DNA of 64,000 nucleotides, taken from Aggregatilinea lenta. Its GTDB lineage: Bacteria > Chloroflexota > Anaerolineae > Aggregatilineales > Aggregatilineaceae. Location: positions 1,717,506 through 1,781,505 of the forward strand of contig NZ_BFCB01000002.1 of NCBI RefSeq assembly GCF_003569045.1. Reading direction: 5' to 3'. The position numbers and the translations under genes are program-made. Under the pieces are notes generated by a model. It did not search any database and was not told the origin of the DNA. It was given only the letters and a program-made list of their open reading frames with translations. Positions 43,842-50,830 of the stretch are shown in pieces (within the stretch, counting starts at the first letter, position 1; each line of letters starts with the position of its first letter).

Positions 43842-43869
43842 GTAGGGGCAATTCATGAATTGCCCCTAC
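43842..43869. repeat. Perfect 28-base family B palindrome
   Basis: GTAGGGGCAATTCA followed by TGAATTGCCCCTAC. It lies between the convergent kinase and M24-peptidase genes. A G/A-rich hairpin with GTCCCTTTCTTTCGGAAAGG just after the kinase stop (43778-43804) may end that transcript. Confidence 0.82.
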
Positions 43870-45158: not shown

Positions 45159-45416
45159 ATGCAGCGATTACTGGCATTTGCGGGTGGCATTTTGAGCGGG
45201 GCGACAGTCGGAACCCTGGTGGCACTGCTGTTCACGCCCGCGTCGGGTGACGAAATGCGCGACGACATCGAGCGCCGCAAACAGAACGCGATCATGGCCG
45301 GACGCGCCGCCGCCAACGCCAAGCGCGCGGAGTTGGAAGCAGAGCTAGCCGCGCTGACGAAATCACCGCTGGCGGGCGAGACCGGCGCGACGGTGCCCGC
45401 CACGATCCGGCGGTGA
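45159..45416 (+). CDS. YtxH-like small membrane-anchored protein
   Basis: An 85-residue protein with a Gly-rich hydrophobic N-terminus (FAGGILSGATVGTLVALLFT) directly followed by PASGDEMRDDIERRK and a charged helix. This is the pattern of YtxH/gas-vesicle GvpP-like proteins with the G-xx-G-xx-ALLFTPxSG motif. The function is unknown; some members are stress-induced. GGGAGGA lies 8 bases before ATG 45159. It has its own promoter and is followed by a terminator. Confidence 0.75.
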   Translation: MQRLLAFAGGILSGATVGTLVALLFTPASGDEMRDDIERRKQNAIMAGRAAANAKRAELEAELAALTKSPLAGETGATVPATIRR

Positions 45417-45460
45417 GAAAAGCAGTTTTTAGTCGTTAGTTTGAAGTTGTTAGTTCAAGC

Positions 45461-45494
45461 AAAAAAACCGTCGCGTAAATGCGGCGGTTTTTCG
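45461..45494. terminator. Bidirectional-looking terminator hairpin
   Basis: A-rich arm AAAACCGTCGC, loop GTAAAT, then GCGGCGGTTTTT (to about 45492). The stem is flanked by A-run and T-run, so it could terminate in both directions. It closes the YtxH-like transcript and precedes the A+T-rich gene. Confidence 0.72.
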
Positions 45495-45565
45495 TGTAAG
45501 ACAGAAACCAGTCCTGTTGTTGGCAAGACCTCCCCTGCCCTTCTTCAGCACCAATTGAAAAGGTC

Positions 45566-45571
45566 TATAAT
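45566..45571 (+). promoter_or_regulatory. TATAAT box before the A+T-rich gene
   Basis: GGTCTATAATACG carries a perfect -10 hexamer 28 bases before the ATG. The ribosome site is an unusual run of G (AAGGGGGGGG) 4 bases before the start. Confidence 0.5.
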
Positions 45572-45598
45572 ACGTTTGACTAAACAAGGGGGGGGATT

Positions 45599-47029
45599 AT
45601 GGCAATCTCTGTCAGCGATTATCTAGGCATTGACGCGGAAGAATTCGCCCAAACCGGAGCCTTTGACGCCATTTTAGATGTGGATGCAAAACTTTTTATT
45701 GATCCGCACTTACTCAAGGATACCTCTGCGCCCGAACTCCAAGGCTCCTATGGAAAAGTCCGCCACCGCTTTATTGAGATTCTCAAATTGCTTGAAGCCT
45801 CAAAGAAGCCGGGAGACAAAGCTTGGCGCGAAGCAGCCCATCGATTTAGATTTCCCGAAGTTCAGGGCTTATGTATTGGGTATTCAGCGCAATCCACATC
45901 GGGTAGTGGCATGGGAGAAGGCATTCGGCATCAGCTACTCACTACGGCTAAACTCATCGTGGATTCGGGTATTCGAGACCCCGAAATGTTCGAACTAATG
46001 GGCCTTTTTGAGGAGGGAGTGGGCGCTGATCGGATCAGCGATATGCTTGCAAGAATAATCCTTGAAGATTTGTTGACCTACTCTGAACGAATATTTAGCG
46101 AATTTGGAGTTACACGTACCAGAGAGATTAAACACGGTGATAAGCAGTTCAGTCTACCATCCAACCCATTCAACCGCTGGCCGATAATTCTTGTGCCTAT
46201 GGATATCCTCAGGGACTTACCTCAGATATTCGAGCTTAGCGATATCAGCGACGTGATTGATACTAATTGGACTCTGCGGCAACGACTAAATCAGGTAATC
46301 GGTATAAGTTGGCGTGATGCTCGCAAGCTCAAGAAGCGAGACTATAAAGACATCCTTCTTCACGAGCCAGAAATTCTCAGTCATCTAATTGTAGAATACC
46401 GCCAACTCCCAACTCAAAAGTACAGTTTTGACTCTGACCCAGCTGGACAGTTTCTTTGGTACAGGACAACTCGACGATATGCCAATCAGTATCCTTTAGA
46501 CCTCAAGCTTGTCTCCTTCCCTAAACCAGAACAAGTTTTAACAGTAGTTCTTGCCATCTGTAATCAATTTAAGCAACTGATCGAAAACAACGGCTTGCAT
46601 ACTTTGTTGTATCGGGATGATGCCTGTCTTGATCCCAAAAGAGAAGAGGCAGCTCAAAAAGTCTTCTTAGGTATAGCGGACGCATATTGCAAAGCCAATA
46701 ATCTAGACCTGAGTCCCGAAATAAATAGTGGTCGTGGATATGTGGATTTCAAAATAAGCCGCGGATATAGCAGTCGAGTTATTGTCGAGACTAAGCTAAC
46801 TACCAACCAAAACTTGCTTCATGGCTATCAGAAGCAAATTGGCGAATATCAAAAAGCCGAACAGACTAATTATGCGGTTTATCTTGTAATTGATGTTGAG
46901 GGAGGACCCAAAAAACGTCTGGAAGAGTTCTCTGCCTATATTGAAACCTCTAGAGCAGAGAATGAGCAAACCCCAGAAGTGCTAATTGTCTATGGACGAA
47001 GGAAACCATCAGCCAGCCATTTTCATTAG
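45599..47029 (+). CDS. A+T-rich hypothetical protein with C-terminal PD-(D/E)XK-like nuclease signature
   Basis: A 476-residue soluble protein whose base composition and codon use are visibly far more A+T-rich than its neighbours. The N-terminus (ISVSDYLGIDAEEFAQTGAF, then LFIDPHLL) matches an uncharacterised family I cannot name. The C-terminal part has a PD-(D/E)XK-like pattern: Asp383 in GYVDFKIS, then Glu397-x-Lys399 in VIVETKLT. A helix with Gln-rich YQKQIGEYQKAEQ and strand YAVYLVIDV follows. This suggests a DNA or RNA endonuclease, possibly anti-phage. No partner gene is present, and no transposase or repeat flanks it beyond the terminator. The function is an inference. Confidence 0.72.
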   Translation: MAISVSDYLGIDAEEFAQTGAFDAILDVDAKLFIDPHLLKDTSAPELQGSYGKVRHRFIEILKLLEASKKPGDKAWREAAHRFRFPEVQGLCIGYSAQSTSGSGMGEGIRHQLLTTAKLIVDSGIRDPEMFELMGLFEEGVGADRISDMLARIILEDLLTYSERIFSEFGVTRTREIKHGDKQFSLPSNPFNRWPIILVPMDILRDLPQIFELSDISDVIDTNWTLRQRLNQVIGISWRDARKLKKRDYKDILLHEPEILSHLIVEYRQLPTQKYSFDSDPAGQFLWYRTTRRYANQYPLDLKLVSFPKPEQVLTVVLAICNQFKQLIENNGLHTLLYRDDACLDPKREEAAQKVFLGIADAYCKANNLDLSPEINSGRGYVDFKISRGYSSRVIVETKLTTNQNLLHGYQKQIGEYQKAEQTNYAVYLVIDVEGGPKKRLEEFSAYIETSRAENEQTPEVLIVYGRRKPSASHFH

Positions 47030-47079
47030 GATTCTTTACTTTAGTTGCACTTTTCAGTCCATATCAGGAACTGTGAAAC

Positions 47080-47107
47080 GTAGGGGCAATTCGTGAACTG
47101 CCCCTAC
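47080..47107. repeat. Family B palindrome after the A+T-rich gene
   Basis: GTAGGGGCAATTCGTGAACT then GCCCCTAC, nearly perfect (one mismatch pair in the core). The G+C-rich host sequence resumes here, marking the right boundary of the A+T-rich insertion. Confidence 0.8.
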
Positions 47108-47133
47108 GACACGTCACCCAAACAGATGCGCCC

Positions 47134-49044
47134 CTACTCCACTGCCGTCAGCGTATAGCTGTAGTCGGCAGGCTCGGTCGTGACCGGGGCCAGCCCGGCG
47201 ATCACGATCACCGTCTGGCCGTCCGGCGCGAGGGGAATGTCCCACTCGCCCTGCGTGCCGTCTTCCGGCCCCAGCAGCCGCGTGACCGGCGTATCGCTGC
47301 CCGGCGCGACCACTTCCACCAGGAAGGTCTGCGGCAGGCGGTTGTTCATCAGAATCCAGCCCTCGCTGGTCCAGCCGCCGTCGCCGCTCTCGAAGTCCTC
47401 GCTGTAGTCCAGTTCTGGCACGCTCACATCGTCGATGATCAGGCCCGGCTGCGTCACGGCGTCGTCGGTGATGTACTCGAAGCGCACCAGGATCGGCTGC
47501 CCGGCGTAAGACGTCAGGTCCAGCGACTCCTGCACCCAGTCCCCGCTCTGGCCGGTGTAGCCGGGGCCGTAGCTGTTGCCGTGCGGATCGTCGGTGGTGG
47601 TCAGCGGTGTTTCGAGCGGCGTCCAGGTCGCGCCGTCGTCGGTGGACACCATCACGTATCCAAAATCCCAACCCTCTTCGATCCAGTACCACGTCCAGTA
47701 ATTCAGCGTAGCGCTGTCTACGTTCGTCAGGTCGAAGGCGCGCGTCAGGCGGCTGTCGCTCTCGTCGGCACGGTTGGACCACCACATCATCTCGCCACTG
47801 TGCGCGTCCGCCGGGACCAGTGACGCGGTTTCGCTGCCGTCAAACGCAAAGTGGAACGTCTCCGTGCCGTTGTTGGGCAGCGCGAGGTAATCTGGCCCCC
47901 ACTGCGGCGCAGACGCTTCAAACCACACGTCGCTGAGCGCCAACGTCTCGGTGATGCTGGCTTTGGGCAGATCCATCATTTCGCTGAAGGTATAGGCATA
48001 ACGCCCGTCGCCCACGGAGGCGTCCTGGATCAGATTCGTCGCCAGCCAATCCCCGAACAGAGCGACCAGTGTCACCGGCTCGCCCGTGGTCGGATCGGTC
48101 GCGCCGATGGCGGCCAGCGTCTCGTCCACGCTTTCCAGCCCGTTCTTCGCGTCGCTGACGAGCGTGGTGGTCGCTTCTTCGCCGTAGCGCTCGTAGAAGT
48201 ACGCCAGGAAGGCGAACGCCGCGCCGTAATGCAGGCCGCGATCGTCATCTTCCGGCCACGTGTTGAGCTGGAGATTCGGGGATTGCAGGAAGTCCGGCGT
48301 AAAGTCGCTCGCGCCGTACCCCGCGATCATCGCCGCCAGTTCCGACAGGCCCTCGTTTAGCCACGTATCTTCGTTGGCGTCCACGTTCCAGTGCACCATG
48401 TGCTGAAACTCATGCGCCAGTACGCCCTCGTAGTATGGCGTGCCAATGGCCCACTCCATCGTGTCCAGGTTGACGAAGAACATCTCGTGCTCGTTGGACC
48501 CTGCCACCGCCTCGGTCGGGTACTCGCTCTCGCTGCCGTAATACGCCGCGACCCAGCTACCCAGGTTGCGCGCGTGCAGGATATACAGGTGCGGATCGCC
48601 GTCGATGCCGGGGAACCACTCGGAGCCGAACACCTCGATCACCTTCGGGCGGATCGTCTCCTCGAACGTGTCCGCCGAGCGCTGTACAGCCGCCAGATTC
48701 GGGTCGTAGCCTTCCTCGAAGAACATGTAAATGTGCTCGGTGGCGTAGACCAGCCGTGCGTCGATCTCGAACTGGTAGTCCTGGTCCAGGTTGTCTGCCG
48801 AGAAGGTCAGCACGTCACCGACCTGCAATTCCGGTGCGGACGTGGGCGGTTCGGGGATGTCCGTCACACCCAGCAGGCGCTCGGCCAGATCCACACGGTC
48901 ACGCGCGGGGATCACGGTGTCTTCGAGCTGGCGCAGCGTCTCCTCGTCACCGTCCGCATGCGCGAACGGCGCGGACAGCGGCAGCGCGAGTGCAACCAGC
49001 AGCAGGAGGGTCAGCAAGCGGGAAACGCGGTGGGGTTTGCTCAT
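47134..49044 (-). CDS. Secreted zinc metallopeptidase, immune-inhibitor-A-like
   Basis: A 636-residue secreted protein. The signal peptide spans about 1-30 (RLLTLLLLVALALPLSAPFA, cleavage after HA). The peptidase domain has GVLAHEFQHMVHWN (HExxH) followed by TWLNEGLSELAAM, giving the third ligand Glu; the zinc site resembles immune inhibitor A/M6-like peptidases. The C-terminal part (about 400-636) contains beta-sandwich domains with SATLNYWTWYWIEEGWDFGY and QPGLIIDDVSVPELDYSEDF, as in MAM/immune-inhibitor domains. Start ATG 49044 has GAGG 6 bases upstream. It probably degrades extracellular protein. Confidence 0.85.
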   Translation of the reverse strand: MSKPHRVSRLLTLLLLVALALPLSAPFAHADGDEETLRQLEDTVIPARDRVDLAERLLGVTDIPEPPTSAPELQVGDVLTFSADNLDQDYQFEIDARLVYATEHIYMFFEEGYDPNLAAVQRSADTFEETIRPKVIEVFGSEWFPGIDGDPHLYILHARNLGSWVAAYYGSESEYPTEAVAGSNEHEMFFVNLDTMEWAIGTPYYEGVLAHEFQHMVHWNVDANEDTWLNEGLSELAAMIAGYGASDFTPDFLQSPNLQLNTWPEDDDRGLHYGAAFAFLAYFYERYGEEATTTLVSDAKNGLESVDETLAAIGATDPTTGEPVTLVALFGDWLATNLIQDASVGDGRYAYTFSEMMDLPKASITETLALSDVWFEASAPQWGPDYLALPNNGTETFHFAFDGSETASLVPADAHSGEMMWWSNRADESDSRLTRAFDLTNVDSATLNYWTWYWIEEGWDFGYVMVSTDDGATWTPLETPLTTTDDPHGNSYGPGYTGQSGDWVQESLDLTSYAGQPILVRFEYITDDAVTQPGLIIDDVSVPELDYSEDFESGDGGWTSEGWILMNNRLPQTFLVEVVAPGSDTPVTRLLGPEDGTQGEWDIPLAPDGQTVIVIAGLAPVTTEPADYSYTLTAVE

Positions 49045-49319
49045 CGTCAACCTCGTCGGGGTCTATAACGAATCGTCCTCGTGCCAGATTATACGGTTGA
49101 CTATACCGGTTTCCCTCAAAAACGCTGAATTTATTAACCGGGCGTTCATCCTGGCTGTCCGTTTCGCCCGAAAACGGCGCTGCTCCGGGGCGGAACGAAC
49201 CAATTCTCCGCTCAAGGGACGGCAGGCGATTGCACTTTCCGTACAAGGACGTCAGCCCTCAAATACGGTATGATCCGCCACGCGAGTTCAAATAGGAAAT
49301 CACGCAAAGGAAGTCCCTC

Positions 49320-50627: not shown

Positions 50628-50830
50628 GTAGGGGTAGGGCTTGTGTTACCCGGCTTTTCTCTCAACGGGCGATGCAAGCATCGCCCCTACAAAATCACCG
50701 GAAATTTTGCTTGTCTCCCCTCTCCAATCCGATTGGAGAGGGGCCGGGGGTGAGGTTTCACCGGTAACCGGATCAATTTGTTAAACCGCATCAACCCGCC
50801 CGGTAGGGGCAGTTCATGAACTGCCCCTAC
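50628..50830. repeat. Dense repeat cluster between thrC and the Fur-family gene
   Basis: Family B copies at 50628-50652 (GTAGGGGTAGGGCTTGTGTT then ACCCGG), 50667-50690 (GGGCGATGCAAGCATCGCCC then CTAC) and a perfect palindrome at 50803-50830 (GTAGGGGCAGTTCA then TGAACTGCCCCTAC). An inverted family A copy lies at 50714-50758 (CTCCCCTCTCCAATCCGATT, then GGAGAGGGGCCGGGGGTGAG). The 50604-50956 gap contains these plus the Fur promoter and no gene. Confidence 0.82.

Follow-up and report, generated by a model that had tools for sequence, protein, structure and literature searches.

A probably horizontally acquired one-gene protein of Aggregatilinea lenta, with a conserved N-terminal module and a predicted PD-(D/E)XK nuclease, as a candidate for anti-phage or anti-mobile-element defence

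One-gene nuclease defences must separate self from non-self without a methylase or a guide. Few of them are understood and Shedu is one: the part of PMC12904381 concerned with it describes an N-terminal clamp that senses DNA ends and relieves the autoinhibition of a PD-(D/E)XK nuclease. The Shedu protein, SduA, is a single chain with an N-terminal regulatory part and a PD-(D/E)XK nuclease, and we propose the same layout for the protein examined here. RecB-like QxxxY nucleases, Cas4 and HsdR nuclease domains carry D, ExK and QxxxY in that order; QxxxY is recorded for RecB and some HsdR subunits in an excerpt of PMC4454674. The psu-int slot of P4-like satellites is presented as a reservoir of anti-phage systems, and seven of 19 cloned P4 sets (P4's own and 18 others) protected (both in sections of PMC9122126), so this cargo slot can also hold non-defence genes. 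RmrA proteases are antitoxins paired with varied toxins, as outlined in a portion of PMC10440598.

The DNA analysed here, hereafter the window, is a stretch of 64,000 nucleotides from Aggregatilinea lenta. The protein is encoded by an ORF at 45599-47029 on the + strand, one open frame of 476 aa with an ATG start. We put at about two in three the probability that it was acquired horizontally and acts, as a one-gene system, against phages or mobile elements; its molecular anatomy is well supported, and its defence function we infer from the context of its homologues. The features of the locus are as follows.

45417..47079, no strand: A+T-rich, foreign-looking block with one gene; GC 0.434, 0.447 and 0.36 in three sub-blocks
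45463..45492, + strand: terminator-like hairpin in the interval between the YtxH-like gene and the ORF; inverted repeat with arms at 45463-45474 and 45481-45492
45599..47029, + strand: protein of PHROG 30194 / PDC-M36A / DUF8370 type, 476 aa
45599..46234, + strand: conserved N-terminal module (N-module), residues 1-212, a proposed sensor or regulatory domain; 11 invariant positions
46235..46642, + strand: helical middle, residues 213-348, from the secondary structure of the AlphaFold2 model
46643..47026, + strand: predicted PD-(D/E)XK nuclease core, residues 349-476, with E349, D383, E397-x-K399 and Q413-xxx-Y417
47080..47107, no strand: 28-bp palindromic repeat at the downstream edge of the A+T-rich block, from a genome-wide repeat family

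The sequence-only reading that preceded this work held that the gene departs from its surroundings in base composition and codon choice, and we confirmed both departures. GC is 0.41-0.49 in 500-base segments over the ORF and about 0.59-0.71 in segments clear of it. Its GC3 is 0.416, against a mean of 0.829 (sd 0.054, minimum 0.634) for 47 other ORFs of the window, and its codon-adaptation-like index is 0.286 against a mean of 0.655 (sd 0.073), the comparison ORFs (at least 150 aa each) having been picked by a GC3 rule that itself favours high-GC3 ORFs. The A+T-rich block begins where the YtxH-like gene ends, stops at the palindrome at 47080 and has the ORF as its sole gene; GC is 0.434 at the upstream edge, 0.36 from the ORF to the repeat at the downstream edge and 0.593 just beyond the block.

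The gene had also been described as standing alone between a terminator and a repeat, with its own promoter. A hairpin does lie upstream (fold -18.8 kcal/mol, z -5.15) and a palindrome downstream, but the hairpin at 45463..45492 is absent from the consensus-scan listing and the palindrome is not specific to this gene. We found 22 exact sites of the palindrome in the genome (37 strand matches, against none for a reversed-pattern control), a number that led us to drop it as an insertion mark, and it is probably unrelated to the ORF. Within the window it is intergenic at 43842-43869, 47080-47107 and 50803-50830, and chance ORFs start inside it. Direct repeats bounding an insertion were also considered, and only short, chance-like repeats were seen around the ORF. 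The promoter found no support: the consensus scan found no + strand promoter-like site in 45300-47300, where it gave two sites in all against a mean of 2.3 in shuffled sequences, and the TATAAT visible at 45566-45571 lacks a good -35 box.

The ORF is single-copy in its own genome. The earlier reading had named conservation of the gene in all relatives, with matching codon use, as evidence that would count against it; we found no match in the 17 other genomes of the family (8 of all 18 pass the quality filter), and codon use differs. Across the phylum, the PHROG 30194 profile matches eight of 400 genomes drawn, the genome of the ORF counted. We compared the site in six relatives of the same family that have both flanking genes close together on one contig. 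The ORF is missing in all six, as the proposed empty-site comparison anticipated, but the interval is filled rather than empty: it is occupied by an InhA-like paralogue with 33-35% identity to the neighbouring InhA-like gene, and its GC is 0.57-0.66 outside this other gene. Thus, the ORF occupies a place where these six relatives keep another gene. The InhA-like MAM protein gene of the window lies at 47134-49050; the second paralogue that adjoins it in the six relatives is missing here, where the ORF stands, and the InhA-like gene has a single match in the window genome.

In a tree made quickly and rooted arbitrarily, which does not fix its exact place, the window protein falls on the 60-row side of a supported branch, with 36 of these rows from Pseudomonadota, and apart from L003 and L004, which like L006 are taken to be of its own phylum; the position of L006, on a long branch, is unsure. 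The highest identity of the window protein within the tree set is 44%. Horizontal transfer of the ORF is the simplest reading. By Pfam, seven neighbours in the window are a response regulator, a histidine kinase, an M24 peptidase, a YtxH protein, the InhA-like MAM protein, a PALP enzyme and FUR. They are housekeeping-type genes and form no defence island, and the same scan found among these seven no integrase, transposase or plasmid gene and no HTH or ImmA/IrrE-type match. The defence link therefore rests on homologues elsewhere.

Conserved residues and a structural model support the prediction that the C-terminus is a PD-(D/E)XK nuclease whose QxxxY motif is of the RecB-like kind. Asp383, Glu397 and Lys399, which had been pointed out as lying in the order expected of such nucleases, are indeed at these positions and, together with Q413 and Y417, are invariant in 93 of 93 rows of the family alignment (A3), the window protein included; with E349 they are among its 19 invariant positions. 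As A3 was drawn from best matches, this invariance applies to nearer relatives. In the AlphaFold2 model of the full protein (pLDDT 91.9, pTM 0.89), the predicted core follows the order alpha-beta-beta-beta-alpha-beta (helix 349-366; strands 370-376, 381-387 and 393-400; helix 406-420; strand 426-432), and the Gln-bearing helix said to follow the motif is the predicted helix 406-420.

Structural searches agreed with this in part. VIA-align, led by PD-(D/E)XK restriction enzymes, places residues 309-474 on OkrAI (Z 8.7, rmsd 3.7, 144 aligned) and residues 308-472 on BamHI (Z 8.3, rmsd 4.0, 148 aligned), whereas Foldseek with the whole model gave no match at E<=0.001 in the PDB or among viral proteins. 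Most of the 50 VIA-align rows listed are what we take to be PD-(D/E)XK nucleases, with exceptions such as Rep15. The tool itself cautions that Z values of about 8 occur often; much of the nuclease case is therefore carried by the invariant motif. Single-sequence and profile searches of PDB sequences gave implausible matches only. Motif and fold comparison together sustain the PD-(D/E)XK interpretation, and a C-terminus lacking any nuclease fold is not what we found; the nuclease call of the sequence-only reading is right, and its defence idea is well placed, if unproven.

The family has D, ExK and QxxxY in the same order as RecB-like nucleases, Cas4 and HsdR, and invariantly so. However, the window protein has no helicase part, and the four conserved Cys that serve the Fe-S cluster of Cas4 are not found in the family, in which three A3 columns reach more than 30% Cys (0.62, 0.30 and 0.75) and the window protein has Cys in two. 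Among the 18 members of our first alignment (A1), the nuclease site is decayed in three (L014, L017 and L020). L014 and L017 are longer members (602 and 695 aa) with extra C-terminal parts.

The N-terminal 300 residues had been taken together, but the conserved module ends near residue 212. Eleven of its positions (D29, F33, P36, L38, E87, G94, G102, G142, D144, S147 and D148) are invariant in the 93 A3 rows, and residues 1-212 modelled alone reach pLDDT 93.1 and pTM 0.90. Foldseek of the module against the PDB gave no convincing match (best E 0.89), and VIA gave a best Z of 2.4 over 65 residues among the Foldseek top 1000 chains, a comparison that may miss a known fold. All of 17 further members, whose C-terminal parts differ, are decayed or are missing, retain D29, D144 and D148. 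Eight members (L005, L008, L011, L166-L168, L173 and L174) have a C-terminus unmatched by the window-type C-terminal model. They make up two groups of four, which hhalign joins at a probability of 99.2 but does not align with the window type (1.6 and 1.7); as the short alignments to the window type fall on the ExK region, the two types may still be remote kin within the superfamily. D, E, K and Q stand at the active-site columns in all eight, which look like carriers of a second nuclease type. Another five members (L007, L021, L169, L170 and L172) have the N-module without a recognisable nuclease. Plasmid proteins with the N-module only, of 283-304 aa, are encoded at L172:942-1790, L169:2989-3894, L170:3992-4900 and L021:7986-8897; one such gene sits on a plasmid of 6.8 kb for which four genes are listed. 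At L009:13-2088, a window-type nuclease lies behind an unrelated N-terminus of about 520 residues without a Pfam match.

The family is modular, with the N-module as its constant part. The occurrence of this module on plasmids without the nuclease, and the three of 18 decayed sites, indicate that nuclease action accounts for only part of what the family does. What makes the protein interesting is its unexplained N-terminal module. A bolder and rather doubtful proposal, which we put forward tentatively, is that the module is a new sensor (or enzymatic) immunity fold, a swappable head for an infection signal, and that this head, set on at least two nuclease types and also working alone on plasmids, rather than the nuclease, defines a large uncharacterised defence superfamily.

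The fold comparison of the protein also turned up SduA (8ps5, Z 5.8, rmsd 4.4, 125 aligned). Shedu differs in its DUF4263 domain: the window protein has no Pfam match at E<=1 and no PADLOC Shedu match, and the Pfam copy searched presumably includes DUF4263. The protein is therefore proposed to be Shedu-like in its working and not a Shedu member. A further difference is that its N-module has no convincing match in the PDB.

The gene had been called an orphan, with an N-terminal part of no nameable family, and neither description survives. PHROG 30194 (function unknown) matches residues 4-474, practically the whole protein, with E 7.4e-114, and the PADLOC candidate PDC-M36A matches residues 7-210 with E 1.3e-8 and also matches 18 of 18 proteins of A1. 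The family is thus already catalogued as a defence candidate, which limits its novelty. RefSeq names the product of some E. coli relatives 'DUF8370 family protein'; no library that we searched gave a match of that name, and our literature search found no paper naming 'DUF8370' or 'PDC-M36'. Like Pfam, NCBIfam gave no match to the window protein at E<=1, and single-member matches to these two libraries within A1 are chance-like except for one to PDDEXK_9 at 0.01. We take the letter M in PDC-M36 to denote a multi-gene candidate; the window copy, in contrast, stands alone, and the PDC-M36 partner was unseen among 25 of the 164 PADLOC families listed for 110 neighbours and in ten chosen proteins.

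A pattern scan of genome contigs confirmed 392 stretches encoding relatives, of which the best 80 were kept, and a scan of viral contigs gave 20; single-sequence scans of both were uninformative, an alignment being needed to find relatives. Seventeen plasmid records have a match, seven of them covering at least 80% of the query, whereas tblastn against 50,697 phage records gave no hit for either the window protein or the relative L114. Of 113 family ORFs, 94 were kept; those dropped include ten plasmid loci (L012-L021), split genes (L026, L085 and L119), contig-cut genes (L068 and L097) and L059, the twin of L058. Removal of L120 and L121 (leaving 92) and addition of the window protein gave the 93 rows of A3, whose sources are the best 80 of the 392 genome stretches and the viral contigs and whose mean pairwise identity is 34% (600 sampled pairs). 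The aligned members cover at least 11 phylum-level groups.

Homologues near defence genes or prophages had been recommended as a check, and we located relatives on viral contigs, in P4-like satellites, on plasmids and beside restriction genes. L114-like genes are present in 17 of 5426 E. coli genomes. A cassette of integrase, family gene and psu, taken from E. coli isolate AF3, recurs in 17 genomes at 80% coverage or more, with integrase and psu annotated in 16 and the 17th at 85% coverage without an annotated psu, and the 15 L114-like genomes listed are all within these 17; parts only of the cassette are shared widely (3742 places in 2459 genomes). A second E. coli group, found in 14 of 5426 genomes (13 over at least 80% of the query), includes a P4-like element at ssrA and a mobilizable element. 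Elsewhere, relatives have as neighbours SIR2 and DUF3427 genes; Eco57I-type methylase, helicase and AbiE genes; a IIG-type cluster; a type I R gene; a type III M gene; and an RmrA-like HTH-ImmA/IrrE gene. Since relatives lie on phage satellites and plasmids and beside defence genes in varied bacteria, one-gene defence is the probable function.

Counts of neighbours need to be interpreted cautiously, as the neighbour genes are mechanical, uncurated ORFs, so that the cluster, operon and PADLOC counts given here are rough. At 1e-10, 164 PADLOC families match the 110 nearest genes and 103 match 110 genes more than 6.5 kb away (scanned from 184 near and 126 far neighbours); these are numbers of families rather than of matching proteins, and do not establish that defence genes cluster right beside the family gene. 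Near-versus-far enrichment was dropped as an argument. So was a fixed partner gene, the largest neighbour clusters comprising seven to eight loci. An operon-like upstream gene (same strand, less than 60 bp away, at least 100 aa) is present at 24 of 106 loci and is of varied kinds, and no partner gene is obligate.

These neighbours bear on the best of the other explanations, which we judge to be improbable: that the protein is a toxin-like effector, a DNA-cutting toxin checked by a partner or by tight regulation and freed on infection or DNA damage, with the RmrA-like HTH and ImmA/IrrE peptidase gene found just upstream at some loci as antitoxin or regulator. The RmrA-like cluster comprises seven loci. 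In five of them (L019, L080, L081, L086 and L089) the RmrA-like gene ends between 3 bp inside and 19 bp before the family gene, but L079 has it downstream, on the opposite strand, and in L095 the two are 2.2 kb apart. For the L080 copy there are matches to RmrA (4.6e-102) and capP (4.9e-16), and for an HTH gene beside L021 there is one to capH (3.1e-28). Against this stand the figure of 24 in 106 loci for operon-like upstream genes of any kind, the variety of these genes, and the lack of an RmrA-like gene next to the window copy (seven neighbours) or next to the satellite copy of E. coli AF3. The RmrA-RmrT pair of RosmerTA is likewise not reproduced here: an RmrA-like gene precedes some relatives, but the window protein has no PADLOC RmrT match and no RmrA-type neighbour by Pfam. 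Upstream of the RmrA-like gene, four actinobacterial loci have a gene of 264-271 aa (L080:8056-8862, L086:8108-8905, L089:4231-5025 and L095:5707-6522), of which the L080 copy gave no PADLOC or Pfam match.

The protein might otherwise be a restriction accessory, an extra nuclease working with R-M systems as a back-up or on modified or unmodified DNA, though we rate this as still less probable than a toxin. The family gene directly follows a type I R gene in L084 (REase_I), a gene of the same cluster in L094, a type III M gene in L113 and a cluster of IIG methylase, helicase and GIY-YIG genes in L015, and methylase-type clusters recur in about four loci each; however, operon-like upstream genes of any kind are confined to the same 24 of 106 loci, and no R-M gene lies beside the window copy (seven neighbours) or the inspected E. 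coli copies. Least probable, by a small step, is a role in maintenance of or exclusion by the carrier element (plasmid or satellite competition, or handling of its own DNA) rather than host defence, which would fit the lone N-module on plasmids, one of them of 6.8 kb with four listed genes, and the relatives in satellites and a mobilizable element, but not the lack of an integrase, transposase or plasmid gene among the seven scanned neighbours of the window copy, nor the invariance of the nuclease site in the 93 rows of nearer relatives.

Under the preferred reading, one-gene defence, the N-module would hold the nuclease inactive and respond to some feature of invading DNA or of infection; once released, the nuclease would cut DNA, so that the invader is destroyed or the infected cell halted. 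The family is large, and in it a strictly conserved N-module, for which the PDB offers no convincing match, is attached to a standard fold for cutting DNA. Should the N-module be the sensor, swapping or mutating it would directly reveal what is sensed, and the satellite copies of E. coli make the defence reading testable in a laboratory strain. Four Acinetobacter loci (L031, L032, L085 and L097) have a conserved metabolic cluster upstream of the family gene; inspection by eye showed an aconitase-like protein in all four and citrate-synthase-like and lyase-like proteins in three, which suggests that the cluster marks a chromosomal hotspot.
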